A stretch of DNA of 64,000 bases, taken from Luteibacter rhizovicinus DSM 16549 (GTDB lineage: Bacteria; Pseudomonadota; Gammaproteobacteria; Xanthomonadales; Rhodanobacteraceae). Every line of letters begins with the position of its first letter. Positions within the stretch are counted from its first letter, which is position 1. Positions 8,560 through 48,990 of this stretch are shown here, one piece after another. The position numbers were made by a program, and so were the translations under genes. The notes under the pieces are model-generated. The model saw only the letters and a program-made list of their open reading frames with translations, did no database searches and was not told the origin of the DNA. The DNA is taken from positions 4,182,001 through 4,246,000 of the forward strand of contig NZ_CP017480.1 in the NCBI RefSeq assembly GCF_001887595.1. The letters are read 5' to 3'.

Positions 8560-9441
8560 TTACCGCGCGGCGTGGATTTCCGCGATGTAACCACCAGGGA
8601 ACTGCAGCATCGCCGCATGGCGGTCACCTTCGTCGTGTGCCGGCACCAGGACCTGTGCGCCGGATTGCGTGGCACGTGCCAGGGCGGCGGCGAGATCATC
8701 CACCTCGTAACCCGTCACCTCGCGACCGTAGGGCCAGACGAGGTGTCCATCGGTGACCAGCACGCTCACCTTGCCGTAACCGGACTCGATCCGGATGCGA
8801 CGATAGGTACCCGACGTACCACCCAGCTCCGTCAACGAGGCCTTCGCGTCGTCGGACACGACCTTGCCGTGGGCGAAGCGCGTGAAGGCCTGGACGAACT
8901 TCGCCGCACTGGCCGCCGGCAGGTAGATACGATTCTCCGGGACATGACGCAGCGGTTCGTAGCTCGGCGTCTTCGTGTGCCAGTAGAGCTGCATATTCAC
9001 CCCGCCCGGCCAGCTGATCACCGCGTCGCGGCCGATCGGGTCGTCGAAGGCCGTGACCACGGTGGCCGCACCCGCTTGTTCGGCCGCCTTGATCGCGGCA
9101 TCGAGGTCCGTCACCAGATAGCCCGTACGCTCGAGGCCAAAGGGATACGGCACCGGGGTACGGAAGCCGAAGACGGACACCGCGCCCGATGGGCTCTGCA
9201 CCACCTGCGTCGAGGTGCTCGACGGCGTCGGCGTCACCGTGGCGATGCCCTGCTTCGTCGACTGTCCTTCGAACGTGGCGGCGAAACTGCGCACGAAGGC
9301 ATCGACATCCTGAGGTGCCAGGTAGACGTGCGTGGTGTCGTACTGCGGCCCCGCGGAGAAATCCGGCGTGGTAGCGGCAAGCACAGAGGCGGGTGCGGCG
9401 GCGACGAGTGCGATGCCGAGAAACAAGGAACGGAGACGCAT
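8560..9441 (-). CDS. Secreted VOC (glyoxalase/bleomycin-resistance fold) protein
   Basis: A 293-residue protein with signal peptide MRLRSLFLGIALVAAAPASVLA. The mature part holds two VOC-like modules (YDTTHVYLAPQDVDAFVRSF at about residue 34 and NRIYLPAASAAKFVQAFTRF at about 171), each followed by a module end such as FPGGYIAEIH. Such proteins bind a metal or small ligand; the reaction is not known. Export to the periplasm is unusual for the family and recurs in environmental proteobacteria. It lies just upstream of the NarL-type regulator gene's end on the same strand, convergent with the TonB receptor across a REP pair. Confidence 0.8.
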   Translation of the reverse strand: MRLRSLFLGIALVAAAPASVLAATTPDFSAGPQYDTTHVYLAPQDVDAFVRSFAATFEGQSTKQGIATVTPTPSSTSTQVVQSPSGAVSVFGFRTPVPYPFGLERTGYLVTDLDAAIKAAEQAGAATVVTAFDDPIGRDAVISWPGGVNMQLYWHTKTPSYEPLRHVPENRIYLPAASAAKFVQAFTRFAHGKVVSDDAKASLTELGGTSGTYRRIRIESGYGKVSVLVTDGHLVWPYGREVTGYEVDDLAAALARATQSGAQVLVPAHDEGDRHAAMLQFPGGYIAEIHAAR

Positions 9442-9483: not shown

Positions 9484-10107
9484 TCAACGCAGGAAGCCGC
9501 GCTCCATGGCCAGCGCGATGGCATGCGCACGATTGCTTGCACGGAGTTTGCCCATCGCGTTCGAGAGGTACTCTTTGACGGTCTCGGCGGACAAGCCGAG
9601 GCGTGCGGCGATCTGCTTGTTTTCCAGGCCCAGTGCCACGCCACGCAATACGTCGAGTTCGCGTTCGGAGAGGGCCTGGTCGCCGTAGTGTTCGGTGAGG
9701 TCCTGCGCGACCTCCGCCGCGATGCGATGCTGTCCGGCATGCACGGCCTGGATGGTCCCGACGAGATCGTCCACCAACGAGGTCTTCAACAAATACCCAT
9801 TCGCGCCTGCTGCCAGCGCCCGACGCGCGTTGCCGTCGCCACCGTAGGTCGTCAGCACGATGACGCGAGCCGTCGGCGTATGTGCGCGGATGAGGGCGAT
9901 GACACGCGTGCCTTCCATGTCGGGCAGCTGCAGATCGACAAGAGCCACATCGGGCAGCAGCCGGCGCCAGGCTTCGATGCCTTCATGGCCCGTACCCGCC
10001 TGGCCGACCACGTCGAACCCGGGGCTGTCGTCGAGAATCGCTGCGACGCCCGCGCGGAACAGCGGGTGATCGTCGACGATGAGGACGCGGATGGGCTCGG
10101 AAGTCAT
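9484..10107 (-). CDS. NarL/LuxR-family response regulator
   Basis: A 207-residue regulator: receiver domain 1-120 with acidic pocket VDDHP and phosphoacceptor Asp58 (VALVDLQLPD), Thr in the LTTYG segment and Lys in GYLLKTS; LuxR-type helix-turn-helix at about 143-200 (LSERELDVLRGVALGLENKQIAARLGLS...). No histidine kinase is adjacent. Its ATG overlaps the stop of the upstream AraC gene (ATGA at 10104-10107), so the two regulators are made from one mRNA. The downstream secreted VOC gene starts 43 bases after its stop on the same strand and may belong to the operon. Confidence 0.92.
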   Translation of the reverse strand: MTSEPIRVLIVDDHPLFRAGVAAILDDSPGFDVVGQAGTGHEGIEAWRRLLPDVALVDLQLPDMEGTRVIALIRAHTPTARVIVLTTYGGDGNARRALAAGANGYLLKTSLVDDLVGTIQAVHAGQHRIAAEVAQDLTEHYGDQALSERELDVLRGVALGLENKQIAARLGLSAETVKEYLSNAMGKLRASNRAHAIALAMERGFLR

Positions 10108-10811
10108 GAGCCGAGCTTACCCGTCGGAACCGCGCTCTGTGTGGGAGCTGTGCTCTGCGTGAGAGCCGTGCTCTGTGTGGGAGCCGCTTCAGCGGCGATG
10201 GGTGCTGCGGCAGGCTGGCCCGCTGCCGCGGGATCGCCGATGAATCGGCTCCCACATGGAGCATCGCCGATGAATCGGCTCCTACACTGTGTGCGGAAGG
10301 CGTGGGGGGTGACGTTCGTGGCGATCTTGAAGGCGCGGGTGAAATGGGCCTGGTCGTTGAAGCCGCAGCTGATCGCGATCTCGGCGATCGGTCCGTCGGT
10401 CGCCCGCAACAAGGTCCGCGCGTGGTCGAGCCGATGGCGGTGGCGCCAGCGGTGCGGACTGACGCCGAAGGTGGCGTTGAAGGCGCGGGTGAAATAGCCA
10501 CGCGAAAGCCGGCACGCGGCCGCGAGCTCCCTGATCGACAAGGCCGCATCGAGGTTGGCCAGCGCCATCTCGTGGACCACGCGGATTTGCCAGGCAGCAA
10601 GCCCACTGGGGACCACATCGGCAGACACGGGCACCGCGTTGGTGTGAATCTGCAGGGCCAGCACGATGTAGCGCGCGCACGCGTCGCGATCCGGTGTATC
10701 GGTCGCGTCGATCTGCTGCAGTGCCTTGCGCAGCAGGCCCCGAACGCGCTCGGCGGTGGGATGCGCGACCCGGCGCGTGAGGACCGGCGCCGGTATCTGG
10801 GCGAAGTTCAT
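10104..10811 (-). CDS. AraC-family regulator with REP-encoded C-terminal tail
   Basis: A 235-residue protein. A short N-terminal helical region precedes the two AraC helix-turn-helix motifs at about 90-190 (SIRELAAACRLSRGYFTRAF and GPIAEIAISCGFNDQAHFTRAF), which end in NVTPHAFRTQC, the usual end of the family. The next about 50 residues (two RFIGD copies, then PIAAEAAPTQ and STALTQSTAPTQS) are the literal translation of REP elements and an 18-bp tandem repeat. The frame then stops on ATGA shared with the response-regulator start. Probably the ancestral stop was lost when REP DNA spread here. No ligand-binding cupin is seen. Confidence 0.85.
   Translation of the reverse strand: MNFAQIPAPVLTRRVAHPTAERVRGLLRKALQQIDATDTPDRDACARYIVLALQIHTNAVPVSADVVPSGLAAWQIRVVHEMALANLDAALSIRELAAACRLSRGYFTRAFNATFGVSPHRWRHRHRLDHARTLLRATDGPIAEIAISCGFNDQAHFTRAFKIATNVTPHAFRTQCRSRFIGDAPCGSRFIGDPAAAGQPAAAPIAAEAAPTQSTALTQSTAPTQSAVPTGKLGS
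10132..10286. repeat. REP cluster plus 18-bp tandem repeat, inside a coding region
   Basis: From left: three 18-bp units (10132-10149, 10150-10167, 10168-10185; type GTGCTCTGTGTGGGAGCC), a CTTCAGCGG-type REP core (10176-10199), and two ATGAATCGG-type cores in inverse orientation (10233-10256, 10263-10286). All of it lies inside the 3' end of the AraC gene. Confidence 0.9.
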
Positions 10812-10886: not shown

Positions 10887-12065
10887 TCAGTGCGTCGCCG
10901 GCACGCGATGCAGCAAACGCGAGACCAGCGCGATCGCGGCGAGGCCGCCACCAAGGACGCAAACGCCTGTCCAGCCGGCATGTCGCCACACTTCGGCAGC
11001 CGCGAACGAGCCGGTCGCGCCACCGAGGAACATCGTGGTCATGAACAGGGTATTGAGCCGACTCTTGAACTCGGGGTGCAGACCGTAGACCACATGCTGG
11101 TGGGAAACGAGTGCGATCTGCACGCCGAAGTCGAGCAGGATGACGCCGACGATCAACCCGACCAGCGTCGGCCACAGCGCAAAGACCACCCAGGCCAGTA
11201 CCGTTGCCAGCGCGCCGGCCGCGATCACCCGCCACGGCCCTCGGCGATCGGCGACGCGCCCGGCCAGCGGTGCCATCGCCACGCCGACGGCACCGACTAC
11301 GCCGAAGAGACCTGCCGAGGCGGCACCGAGATTCAGCGGCGGCTGCTCCAGACGCAGGGCCAGCACGGTCCAGAAGGCGGAGAAGGACGCGAAGATCACC
11401 GCCTGGGTCAGCGCGGCCCGGCGCAGCAAGGGCTCGCGACGCCACAGGGCAACCAGCGACGACATCAGTTCCCCGTAGCTCACCCGGCGCGTCGGATGGT
11501 GCTCGGGGAGGCGCACGCGCATGAGCACGGCCCCCATCAACGCGATGGGTACGCCCAGCCAGAACATCGCGCGCCACCCGGCGGCACTGGCGACGAAGCC
11601 TGCCACCGTACGGCTGAGCAGGATGCCGGTGAGCAGGCCGCTCATGACCGTGCCGACAGCGGCGCCGCGTTTGGACGGTTCGGCGAGGATGGCCGCGAAC
11701 GGCACGATCTGCTGTGCGGCGGTGGCCATCGCGCCGACCAGCACCGAGGCGATCGCCAGCGTGGCCAGGCCGGGCGCGAGTGCGGCCGCCGCCATGGCGA
11801 CGGCCAGCACGACGAATTGCACGACGATGAGCCTCCGCCGTTCCAGCGCGTCGCCCAGGGGAACGAGAAACAGCAGGCCGGCGGCATAGCCCAGCTGGGT
11901 AAGCGTCGGGATCCAGCGTTCCACGGCGCCATCGTGCAAATCGCGCGACATGATCCCGAGCATCGGCTGGTTGTAGTAGATGTTTGCGACGGCCAGGCCG
12001 GTCGCGAGGGCCATGGCGTAGAGCGTGCCGCGAGTCAGGACTCGCAGCGGGGTGGGATTATCCAT
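10887..12065 (-). CDS. MFS transporter (drug/sugar efflux type)
   Basis: A 392-residue protein with about 12 hydrophobic helices. The first loop has LGDALERRRLIVVQ, a variant of the MFS signature GxxxDRxGRR, and the second half repeats it as LAGRVADRRGPW. The start ATANIYYNQP-like (here GLAVANIYYNQPML, near residue 25) is typical of the YgaY/NepI-like exporters. Inner-membrane proton-coupled efflux is likely; the substrate is unknown. The frame can be extended upstream, but that part is REP DNA, so ATG 12065 (MDNPTPLRVLTRG) is chosen. It is transcribed away from the lipoprotein gene region but on the same strand as it. Confidence 0.88.
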   Translation of the reverse strand: MDNPTPLRVLTRGTLYAMALATGLAVANIYYNQPMLGIMSRDLHDGAVERWIPTLTQLGYAAGLLFLVPLGDALERRRLIVVQFVVLAVAMAAAALAPGLATLAIASVLVGAMATAAQQIVPFAAILAEPSKRGAAVGTVMSGLLTGILLSRTVAGFVASAAGWRAMFWLGVPIALMGAVLMRVRLPEHHPTRRVSYGELMSSLVALWRREPLLRRAALTQAVIFASFSAFWTVLALRLEQPPLNLGAASAGLFGVVGAVGVAMAPLAGRVADRRGPWRVIAAGALATVLAWVVFALWPTLVGLIVGVILLDFGVQIALVSHQHVVYGLHPEFKSRLNTLFMTTMFLGGATGSFAAAEVWRHAGWTGVCVLGGGLAAIALVSRLLHRVPATH

Positions 12066-12156
12066 TGTGTCGCGGCTCCGGGGTTTTGCGGACTGTGCCG
12101 CACGGAGCGACCTGGGGCTTGAAGGATACGCACGTCTGGCTTTCTCGGCGACGTGG

Positions 12157-12180
12157 ATCGCCGATGAATCGGCTCCTACA
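12157..12180. repeat. REP element
   Basis: One ATCGCCGATGAATCGGCTCC-type core, 92 bases upstream of the MFS start, ending TACA instead of CACA. Confidence 0.85.
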
Positions 12181-12213
12181 GGAGCGGCGCGGCGTCGTTC
12201 GTGGTGGGCCGGG

Positions 12214-12567
12214 CTATTTGTCGGCGACGGTCCAGACGAGGGGGAGGTGCAGGTCGTCACAGCCCTTCTTGCAGACGAAGGTGCCGTGCTCGCCGGCCAG
12301 GTTCAGACGCCGGCCGCCGCTCAGGGTCAGGTCCAGCGTGCCGTCCCAACCGCTGGGCGCATGCGAGAGGTCTTTCTTGTCCAGCGTAAAAGGCTGCGAA
12401 TACGCCTTGGGCCCCCAGTGCCAGCTCACTGTCCCCCGCTGGCCTTCCAGGACGATGTCGGCGCCATCGGCGGACTTGCCCGAGAGATGGAAGTCGTCGC
12501 CCATGCAGCCGGCGAGGAAAATGACGATGGAGCATACGAGCGGCAGGAGACGAAGCTTCACGGGCAT
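12214..12567 (-). CDS. Small lipoprotein
   Basis: A 117-residue protein with a lipoprotein signal (MPVKLRLLPLVCSIVIFLAGC, lipobox LAGC). The mature part is beta-rich (ADIVLEGQRGTVSWHWG, GTLDLTLSGGRRLNL) and holds a Cys pair (VCKKGC). Family unknown. It is divergent from the cioA gene, with 163 bases between the two starts that should hold both promoters; no factor site was recognised there. Confidence 0.75.
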   Translation of the reverse strand: MPVKLRLLPLVCSIVIFLAGCMGDDFHLSGKSADGADIVLEGQRGTVSWHWGPKAYSQPFTLDKKDLSHAPSGWDGTLDLTLSGGRRLNLAGEHGTFVCKKGCDDLHLPLVWTVADK

Positions 12568-22640: not shown

Positions 22641-23834
22641 TCAGGCCAGTGCTCCGGCGTATTTGCGACAGTGCTCGAGATAGCCGCCCTCATGGGCCTG
22701 GACCAGTTCGACCACGCTACGCCATAGCCACGACGGCGCGTCGATATTCTGCGGACGGTTACGTGCGAGTTCGCTGAGCCAGCTCTTGCGCTGCTCGCGA
22801 CTCAACTGGGCGGCGTGCGCCCGGCCGACCACGTTGCCGAGATAGCGGGCGACCTCCATCGCATCGTCGGGGGCCATCTGCTCGAGATCGATCTTGAGAT
22901 CCTGTGGACGCAGTTCTCGAACGAAGACGGTCTTGCCCTGGATGCGCGAGGCCATCATGCGCTGGCCGAGATTGGGGGCGAGATGGAGCGCACCTTCCTT
23001 CACACGGAGCGCGTTGTCCCGAGGCATGTCGGCCGTCGCGCTGCGCGGTGCGGCGGCGCGCAAGGCCTCCTTGATATCGACCAGGCATAGTTCCTTGCGA
23101 CCGCTGACGCGTATCAGCAGCGCATAGCGCAGTCGTCCCAGCGAGCTACAGCCCTTCACCCAGTACTTCGCATCGACCAGTTCCACCCTGGCATCGTCCT
23201 CGCGGTGGACCAGCTGGGTGACCAGTTTCTGCATGCCGTCGCTCAAGGCGAGCGTCTCCAGCTCGGCGCGCTCTTCGTCGGTGACCGGCCAGAAGCGGCG
23301 GCCCAACGGAATGGTCGGCTTCGAGCCTTCGATGCGTTCATCGGCAAGATGCTTCCAGCGGCGCTTGGTCGCTGCCTTCATGACCACGCTGATGCACGAC
23401 GGACGATCGACGAGACGATACTCTTTTCGTCCGCTTCCCATGGCCCGCTCGTAGCCATCGATCAGCTGCTCGACCATGCGTGCCGTAATCACACCGGGAA
23501 GATCGGAGCCCCGGGCGGCGGTGGCGAGGGAGACCGCAAGACGCACGATGTCGTGCGCGGGATTGCCCATGACGGTCTGGTCGAGATCGCGAATCTGGAT
23601 GTCGATGCCGCCGTTGTTGTCGGCCACCGGGCCTATGTTGCTGACGTGGCAGTCGCCGCAGATCCAGATATCGGGACCCTTTGGCAGGGTGTGACCGGCT
23701 TGCTCGAGCCAGTCGTAGAACTGGATGGTATTGCCGCGCACGAAGGCGTGCGCGGAGCGTGCCATTTTCAGATGGCGTAGCGCGGTGAGATTCTCTGCGC
23801 GATCCTGCGGTTCGACGATTCCCTTGACTGGCAT
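22641..23834 (-). CDS. DUF2252 family protein
   Basis: A 397-residue protein. The sequence HLKMARSAHAFVRGNTIQFYDWL, DIWICGDCHVSNIGP, DIQIRDLDQTVMGNPAHDIVRLAVSL and YWVKGCSSLGRLRYALLI contains the kinase-like motifs of DUF2252 (a predicted phosphotransferase related to aminoglycoside kinases: GDCHxxN as catalytic loop, D in IRDLDQT as metal ligand). Substrate unknown. ATG 23834 has GAGG 7 bases before it. The frame is open further upstream to 24002 but that stretch translates REP DNA (LWEPIHRR twice) and is not counted. Confidence 0.85.
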   Translation of the reverse strand: MPVKGIVEPQDRAENLTALRHLKMARSAHAFVRGNTIQFYDWLEQAGHTLPKGPDIWICGDCHVSNIGPVADNNGGIDIQIRDLDQTVMGNPAHDIVRLAVSLATAARGSDLPGVITARMVEQLIDGYERAMGSGRKEYRLVDRPSCISVVMKAATKRRWKHLADERIEGSKPTIPLGRRFWPVTDEERAELETLALSDGMQKLVTQLVHREDDARVELVDAKYWVKGCSSLGRLRYALLIRVSGRKELCLVDIKEALRAAAPRSATADMPRDNALRVKEGALHLAPNLGQRMMASRIQGKTVFVRELRPQDLKIDLEQMAPDDAMEVARYLGNVVGRAHAAQLSREQRKSWLSELARNRPQNIDAPSWLWRSVVELVQAHEGGYLEHCRKYAGALA

Positions 23835-23947
23835 GACGCGCCTCGTAAGTTCTTGCGCATCGATGTTGAGCGCGGATAACGGGAAAGCGTGTCGTGAGGG
23901 GCGTGAAGTTGTTGAGACGTCGAGGCGAGGTTGCTCGCTGCCGCGAG

Positions 23948-23995
23948 ATCGCCGATGAATCGGCTCCCACAATCGCCGATGAATCGGCTCCCACA
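23948..23995. repeat. Two tandem REP cores
   Basis: Two identical directly repeated ATCGCCGATGAATCGGCTCC-type cores (23948-23971, 23972-23995) with no spacer, 114 bases upstream of the DUF2252 start and 11 bases after the LytTR gene stop. Confidence 0.9.
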
Positions 23996-24006
23996 GGGTC
24001 AAAAGA

Positions 24007-47745: not shown

Positions 47746-48855
47746 TCAAATACCTGCCGGGACCCGCCCAGGGGCGATTCTTGAGGCACGCCTGCCAAGG
47801 GCATTGGCGGGTAATTCGACGTAGACATGCACAAGACAGGCGACAAGAATTGCCAGACCGACGCACGCGAGGGAAGCAAGGGAGTAGGACATACCACGGT
47901 CGATCAGTATCGGCATGGTCACGTACCCGATCATCGAATGCACCAGGTAGAGCGGGAAGCTTATGTCCGCGAGGAAATCGAGGATCCGGTTCTTCCTGAA
48001 GGTGTCCCTGAGCCGATAACACAGCGCGAACAGAACGAGGGCGTACGTGTAATTTTTCACCAGCGGCCCGAACACCTGCGCCTCGTGCATGGCGCCGATC
48101 GCCGCGAACAGAACGAAGATGAGCGTGCCATAGCCAAAGGCTGAACGTGCGTCGAGTTCATCGTAGAGCACGTAGTAGAAAAGGCAGCCCAGGAACATGA
48201 AGCTCATGTACTTCATGTCGGAGACCAGGTACGCGATAAACGAATCCGGAGAGGCGCCATGCGTCGTCAGGTATGTGGCAACGCAACACATGGTGAGCAG
48301 CCCGATGGAAAGCCGGACTACCTGCCGTGCGTCCTTCCCGATCAGTACGATCAGTGCGAACACGACATAGAACTTCACTTCCACCGCCAGCGACCAGCAG
48401 ACGAAATCCAGCGACGGTATGCCGGCTGCTCTGTGTAGCAGCAGAAGGTTGCTCGCCACGTAAGACACGCTCACCCGGTCGGACAACGGCGTCGACCAAT
48501 ACCAGGCGCTCACGCCGTACATGGCCAGGCTGATCAGCAGGCAGAACCAGTACACCGGATAGATGCGGAAGAAGCGGCGTATCAGGAACTGCCCTGTCGA
48601 AAGCTGCCGAAGGCTGATCGGGATGACGAAGCCGCTGATGAGGAAGAACACGCCGACGCCGAAAGCGCCGTAGAGAAAACCACCTGCCCCCGGCGCAAGC
48701 ACGTGCCGCGTATATTCCGGCTGCACCGGCACGAAGCTCGCCGGTACGCCGACGATCGCCCGCACCACAGGCGAGAAGAAGATTCCCCAGTAGTGATTCA
48801 CCACGACCGACAACGCCGCCAAGGCACGGAGTTGGTGAGCAAAAACAAGCTTCAT
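47746..48855 (-). CDS. Acyltransferase 3 family membrane protein
   Basis: A 369-residue protein with about ten membrane helices. Opening FAHQLRALAALSVVVNHYWG, with the His of the H/RxxxH active site, then GVGVFFLISGFVIPISLRQL and RRFFRIYPVYWFCLLISL, the conserved features of AT3 proteins (OafA/ExoZ type). It O-acetylates or otherwise acylates a cell-surface glycan using a cytoplasmic acyl donor. Start at 48855 has AGGGGC nearby; the longer frame is REP DNA. A REP core ends 10 bases before the ATG. No glycan cluster is adjacent. Confidence 0.87.
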   Translation of the reverse strand: MKLVFAHQLRALAALSVVVNHYWGIFFSPVVRAIVGVPASFVPVQPEYTRHVLAPGAGGFLYGAFGVGVFFLISGFVIPISLRQLSTGQFLIRRFFRIYPVYWFCLLISLAMYGVSAWYWSTPLSDRVSVSYVASNLLLLHRAAGIPSLDFVCWSLAVEVKFYVVFALIVLIGKDARQVVRLSIGLLTMCCVATYLTTHGASPDSFIAYLVSDMKYMSFMFLGCLFYYVLYDELDARSAFGYGTLIFVLFAAIGAMHEAQVFGPLVKNYTYALVLFALCYRLRDTFRKNRILDFLADISFPLYLVHSMIGYVTMPILIDRGMSYSLASLACVGLAILVACLVHVYVELPANALGRRASRIAPGRVPAGI

Positions 48856-48864
48856 ACCTGCCCC

Positions 48865-48990
48865 TGTGGGAGCCGATTCATCGGCGATCGGGTGCTCGCG
48901 ATAACCTGCCCCCTGTGGGAGCCGATTCATCGGCGATCGGGTGCTCGCGATGAACTGGCCCGCTGCCGCGGGATCGCCGGTAAAACCGGC
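48865..48990. repeat. Tandem REP cores upstream of acyltransferase
   Basis: Two direct copies of the ATTCATCGG core (48865-48888, 48914-48937), 49 bases apart with shared flanks (CGGGTGCTCGCGAT), then a GC-rich inverted segment with CCGGTAAAACCGG (48978-48990). It covers the leader of the acyltransferase gene, with the first REP only 10 bases from its ATG. Confidence 0.85.

Follow-up and report, generated by a model that had tools for sequence, protein, structure and literature searches.

An AraC-family regulator gene of Luteibacter rhizovicinus whose reading frame continues through a cluster of REP elements

The reading frame of an AraC-family regulator gene in Luteibacter rhizovicinus DSM 16549 runs past the point at which most of its relatives stop, crosses a cluster of repetitive extragenic palindromic (REP) elements and closes on the start codon of the gene downstream. 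We analyzed this gene within a window of 64,000 nucleotides (contig NZ_CP017480.1, positions 4,182,001 to 4,246,000), to which all positions below refer unless a genome is named. Most related genes have short 3′ ends with no REP cores around them, and other genes of the same genome read REP DNA in different frames. Most likely, a REP cluster displaced the stop codon of the AraC gene by inserting or growing there, giving a tail that is translated, unstructured and probably neutral. We infer three things here: insertion displaced the stop, the protein actually includes the tail, and the tail matters little.

The AraC-family regulator is a 235-aa ORF (10104..10811, minus strand) identified from the ORF list, a Pfam HTH_18 match at residues 96-174 and an ortholog alignment; HTH_AraC also matches, and the Pfam match and orthologs place the REP DNA within an ORF that has homologs. 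Residues 1-176 are conserved and residues 177-235 constitute the REP-derived tail. After Cys176 the frame continues for 59 codons to a TGA stop at 10106-10104 (extension at 10104..10283, minus strand, characterized by sequence reading, codon score and pLDDT), crossing in order two REP cores of the same orientation, a GC-rich spacer, a core of opposite orientation and an 18-bp tandem array. The first core (GTAGGAGCCGATTCATCGGCGAT; 10263..10285, minus strand) is read (C)RSRFIGD, the second (GTGGGAGCCGATTCATCGGCGAT; 10233..10255, minus strand) CGSRFIGD, and the third (10177..10199, plus strand) is read by the AraC frame as IAAEAAPT. The third core forms a 31-nt, 87% complementary inverted pair with 10233-10263, and its end is overlapped by the array (10126..10186, 3.4 copies by TRF), which is read TQSTA(L/P). 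The initial annotation had described the tail as translated REP DNA that closes on the ATGA with which a response regulator gene begins, and both its coordinates and its sequence hold; RFIGD is indeed read twice, but the two cores concerned, which it had called inverted, are direct repeats, the third core being the inverted one.

The AraC stop (TGA, 10106-10104) and the response regulator start (ATG, 10107-10105) share a 4-nt overlap. The regulator (9484..10107, minus strand) carries a receiver and a LuxR-type helix-turn-helix domain, as identified by Pfam and by its relatives. On the minus strand the gene order is an MFS transporter (10887..12260), the AraC-type regulator, the response regulator and a glyoxalase-like gene (8560..9441), the last designated from a sub-threshold Pfam match only. 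As a separate observation, the longest ORFs at 10887-12260, 22641-24002 and 47746-48930, all on the minus strand, start within REP cores or immediately ahead of them (REP-related positions 12157-12179, 23948-23994 and 48866-48937, respectively), and their true starts probably lie further downstream.

All three cores in the AraC gene display a GTRG head and a short imperfect palindrome, as in the GTAG/GTGG class of REPs. The genome contains 441 exact REP cores (227 + 214) compared with none for a backwards-read control pattern, which places the identity of the cluster as REP DNA far beyond chance. A single Y1_Tnp transposase gene exceeds the Pfam cut-off in this genome; within its 3.3-kb locus an inverted REP pair lies 3′ of the gene and none was found on the other side with up to 3 mismatches. 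Distribution of the REP in the genus is patchy, with 9 of 23 genomes containing it. REP clusters are repeats and as such prone to mis-assembly, which raises the idea that an assembly or sequencing error placed REP DNA at the AraC gene. This explanation is hardly credible given a single contig of 4.77 Mb that is 99.98% complete and a cluster of only about 180 bp with a tandem unit of its own, for which, allowing one mismatch, no match was found at the other sampled REP loci of the genome.

We searched 23 genomes of the genus and recovered 10 AraC orthologs (53-61% identity, none higher) in 9 other genomes, measuring the length of each tail from the residue aligned with Arg173. Eight of the ten end 5-10 residues past this position, largely bearing out the expectation of the initial annotation that relatives devoid of REP DNA would end near the same site. 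A ninth ortholog (L078) extends 23 residues past it, and in the tenth (L075, genome G002) the frame does not close at the end of AraC, a stop-to-stop stretch of 573 codons taking in the regulator gene that follows. A long REP tail occurs in none of the ten and was found only in the AraC gene of the window; neither was any REP core detected, with up to 3 mismatches, in 13 regions fetched around the AraC and/or regulator genes of relatives, while four of the nine ortholog genomes (G002, G006, G007 and G015) contain the same REP elsewhere. A long tail without REP DNA in relatives, which the initial annotation had named as evidence against its reading, was seen once, in G002, where the frame enters the regulator gene. 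Because L078 carries 23 residues and L075 runs on without REP DNA, the 3′ end of this gene varies for other reasons as well. Two further sequences lie outside the count of ten, L087 (40% identity, 26 residues) and L077, a truncated gene. Among 197 genomes drawn from the family, no other genus matched the AraC protein at E ≤ 1e-35. A pattern-based scan of contigs, which may omit records very near the window's own, returned three Luteibacter AraC loci of 55-60% identity.

Two of these relatives have an organization of their own. In L075 (G002:C1:2496000-2503500, minus strand), one unbroken frame holds both AraC and the response regulator of the same direction, with no REP core nearby, and the species may make an AraC-regulator fusion protein. 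In L077 (G009:C1:2087000-2092000, minus strand), the related AraC gene breaks off within its second helix-turn-helix, where it joins a regulator match missing its first 53 residues, as if a deletion had occurred.

The surroundings of the gene also differ between species. Judged from fdhD and from the glyoxalase-like gene (89-90%), G017 and G013 are the two closest species. In G017, the MFS gene is directly followed by the glyoxalase-like gene, with no AraC or regulator gene between them; in G013, the glyoxalase-like gene is present and no match to the MFS, AraC or regulator genes was found within the 7 kb fetched. G001 has the MFS gene followed by AraC, and G007 has AraC, another ORF and the regulator; in both, the glyoxalase-like gene lies further down on the same strand. 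These gene orders suggest that the AraC gene is old here and was lost in G017.

An open frame through the cluster requires little explanation. Two of the three minus-strand frames are open across it, and the mean over both strands of 74 REP clusters of the genome is 1.86 of 3 (1.35 when only the 20 cluster-strands measuring 90-130 bp are taken), so that the open frame is about what chance would provide. The AraC frame ends at ATGA because the regulator starts with ATGA, and nine of ten related regulators that are not downstream of AraC also start with ATGA, which is probably the regulator's own start. In G009, 86 bp separate the AraC stop from the first in-frame regulator ATG, the co-directional pair of G007 has an extra ORF between the genes, and that of G002 forms one continuous frame; with these arrangements there is no shared overlap for a REP insertion to respect. 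The claim of the initial annotation that REP DNA had entered the operon without breaking translational coupling consequently finds no footing in these pairs. As for the ancestry of the regulator, in a tree of 17 regulators the one in the window pairs with one long branch and does not group clearly with either the co-directional or the divergent type of relatives; it may be a recombinant of the two types, an idea that we weighed by 30-column identities.

A different interpretation of the same region is that the insertion rewired the operon. An intergenic hairpin would have become coding, and read-through across the REP hairpin would bring ribosomes to the ATGA for re-initiation, making regulator translation dependent on AraC translation, unlike in relatives with separate genes. 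Besides the 4-nt overlap itself, the RNA of the region folds strongly (-94 kcal/mol, z of -4.7 against shuffles), such that an earlier stop would leave the hairpin intergenic, and the Shine-Dalgarno pairing of the regulator is weak (-3.8 kcal/mol); together, this fold and this pairing make a newly created coupling possible. The single frame in G002 indicates that linked translation of such pairs can arise. However, regulators of the three relatives that were checked pair no more strongly (-2.5, -2.6 and -3.3 kcal/mol), and the ATGA starts of regulators not located downstream of AraC mean that the overlap needs no selection. Stop/start overlaps are also common, being reported in PMC7538156 for over 30% of E. 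coli gene pairs. We consider both this re-initiation and the rewiring of the operon unlikely; insertion of a REP cluster into a frame that happened to be open remains our preferred interpretation.

We next consider the tail as protein. Its codon usage is not coding-like: the score per codon is -0.14 compared with +0.24 for the conserved part of AraC, the real frame being the least bad of the three (-0.27 and -0.23 for the other two), and G+C content at third positions is below that at second positions. The score was trained on window ORFs chosen by their G+C pattern, one of which (9523-10497, plus strand) is probably spurious. An AlphaFold2 model built from 13 aligned sequences (pTM of 0.48) gives block means of pLDDT that are 87-96 over residues 71-170 and drop to 42-60 past residue 180. 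It shows no secondary structure once residue 181 is passed, and the tail is accordingly predicted to be disordered. The last predicted helix (169-181) includes the first five REP-encoded residues. A tail of 59 in-frame residues in which a tandem expansion yields TQSTA repeats, and whose first five residues may lengthen the last helix in this model, could be taken for a peptide recruited to serve AraC, for instance in stability or in a protein contact. Such a role is very improbable considering the predicted disorder, the codon usage and the way in which other genes read REP DNA in whichever frame is open; nothing in our analysis shows an effect of the tail on the regulator, which the initial annotation had raised as a possibility. 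The tail is most likely a harmless by-product and not a new mechanism.

Read-through into REP DNA is a recurrent event in this genome. We surveyed 74 REP clusters with exact cores. Six of them lie in the window and the others come from matches on the plus strand within the genome's first 1.8 Mb, after dropping duplicates and clusters within 400 bp of the end of a stretch. Using as thresholds at least 60 upstream codons, a codon score over a set limit and at least 23 bp of reading into the cluster, 11 ORFs were found to read into REP clusters, five of them supported by Pfam. Besides AraC, these are a BD-FAE esterase, an SBF-like transporter and an RND pump, whose residues from the REP onward number 30, 12 and 8, respectively; the fifth is fdhD, in which a REP pair is internal to the protein. 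Because AraC prompted the survey, the fair figure for recurrence is 4 of the 73 other clusters. The six remaining ORFs, in none of which a Pfam match was found, were left out of the gene count.

The esterase offers a series of homologous 3′ ends, which we read by eye at 25 loci (L184-L208, two of which are second copies). The G000 esterase ends VVGADSSAI..., and in the 81% identical esterase of G017 a REP pair starts 9 nt past the stop. Homologs of 60-61% identity end LWEPIHRR (G013) and CGSRFSGDGYSRQ... (G021), which are other REP frames or variants, and these two may correspond to a neighbouring paralog. In G018 and G004, a TAG stop is immediately followed by what is apparently another REP. 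Across several species, the stop codon of this gene coincides with or lies close to REP-like elements, of which there are at least two kinds, either read in differing frames or adjoining a TAG. Since the homologs read REP DNA differently and the REP of G017 lies past the stop, no particular peptide is kept. REPs that repeatedly lie near stops and are read in any open frame fit a neutral origin of the AraC tail, and the esterase homologs provide natural material for the study of REP insertion at gene ends.

Neutrality need not extend to all REP-encoded protein, as illustrated by fdhD (G000:C1:852923-853792; L125 / L159). Here FdhD contains the in-frame translation of an inverted REP pair, just before the CxxC motif. 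The loop of the second REP arm carries an extra base relative to the genome consensus, so that the arm measures 24 instead of 23. The insert is common to G000, G017 and G013, being expanded in G013 by copies of a unit ending in GSYK, and visual inspection suggests different REP-like DNA at this site in G007 and G021. Between G000 and G017, dN/dS is 0.53 for the insert (40 codons; bootstrap interval of pN/pS of 0.28-1.41) and 0.03 for the rest of the gene (222 codons), and over the first 33 codons of the insert it is 0.38 between G000 and G013 and 0.28 between G017 and G013. From these alignments, the REP-encoded segment, in frame in three species, is under far weaker constraint than the remainder of FdhD, though perhaps not free. 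With dN/dS values of 0.28-0.53 for the fdhD insert, REP-encoded residues need not always be free of constraint, and fdhD is a better place than the AraC tail for measuring selection on REP-encoded protein.

The sequence of events that we favor for AraC is the following. A REP cluster of the GTAG/GTGG class, whose movement is attributed to REP-associated tyrosine transposases, would have inserted or grown at the 3′ end of the gene, taking the place of the stop codon and of the few codons ahead of it. As AraC happens to enter the cluster in an open frame, ribosomes would read through the cluster and the tandem array as far as the first in-frame stop, located inside the ATGA of the next gene, and the product would be an AraC protein with an unstructured, probably neutral C-terminal tail. 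The tail represents a clean, checkable example of mobile palindromes adding amino acids to proteins, and the recurrence of the process in this genome without one frame being kept calls for caution before functions are given to REP-encoded tails. Liang, Rudd and Deutscher (2015) reportedly found that REPs near stop codons lower translation.

Several known systems resemble this one. REPs and BIMEs associated with RAYTs in Pseudomonas and xanthomonads are described in PMC2817692, which lists those of Pseudomonas and Xanthomonas as bearing a GTGGGAGC or GTAGGAGC head. The elements studied here share with them the TGTGGGAGC / GTAGGAGC head, a short palindrome, inverted pairs, more than 100 copies and a Y1 transposase gene, and differ from that description in that a REP pair was found on one side only of the transposase gene. 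The palindromic elements of Rickettsia (Ogata et al. 2000, 2002, cited in PMC10969869) are likewise palindromic mobile DNA read in frame in host proteins; as reviewed there, they are different elements of greater length (about 150 bp) in another organism. Among the papers listed on REP read-through and REPs in coding regions we found nothing closer to the AraC tail than PMC3733652, whose main text mentions neither Luteibacter nor AraC; those listed for Luteibacter with repetitive extragenic palindromic sequences concern isolates, judging from titles and abstracts. Section 15 of PMC3733652 reports REPs at the ends of coding regions, with REP termini often supplying the stop codon, and intragenic GTAG/CGTC-tagged REPs are described there as encoding 20-30 aa when in dimers or groups and 43-82 aa when in clusters. 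The initial annotation had considered such an arrangement seldom described, but REPs at coding-region ends were already in print in that section, and the REP-encoded AraC tail is an instance of a known phenomenon. As in the cases presented there, a GTAG-class REP lies inside an ORF; unlike in those cases, the extension of AraC runs into the start codon of the gene that follows.
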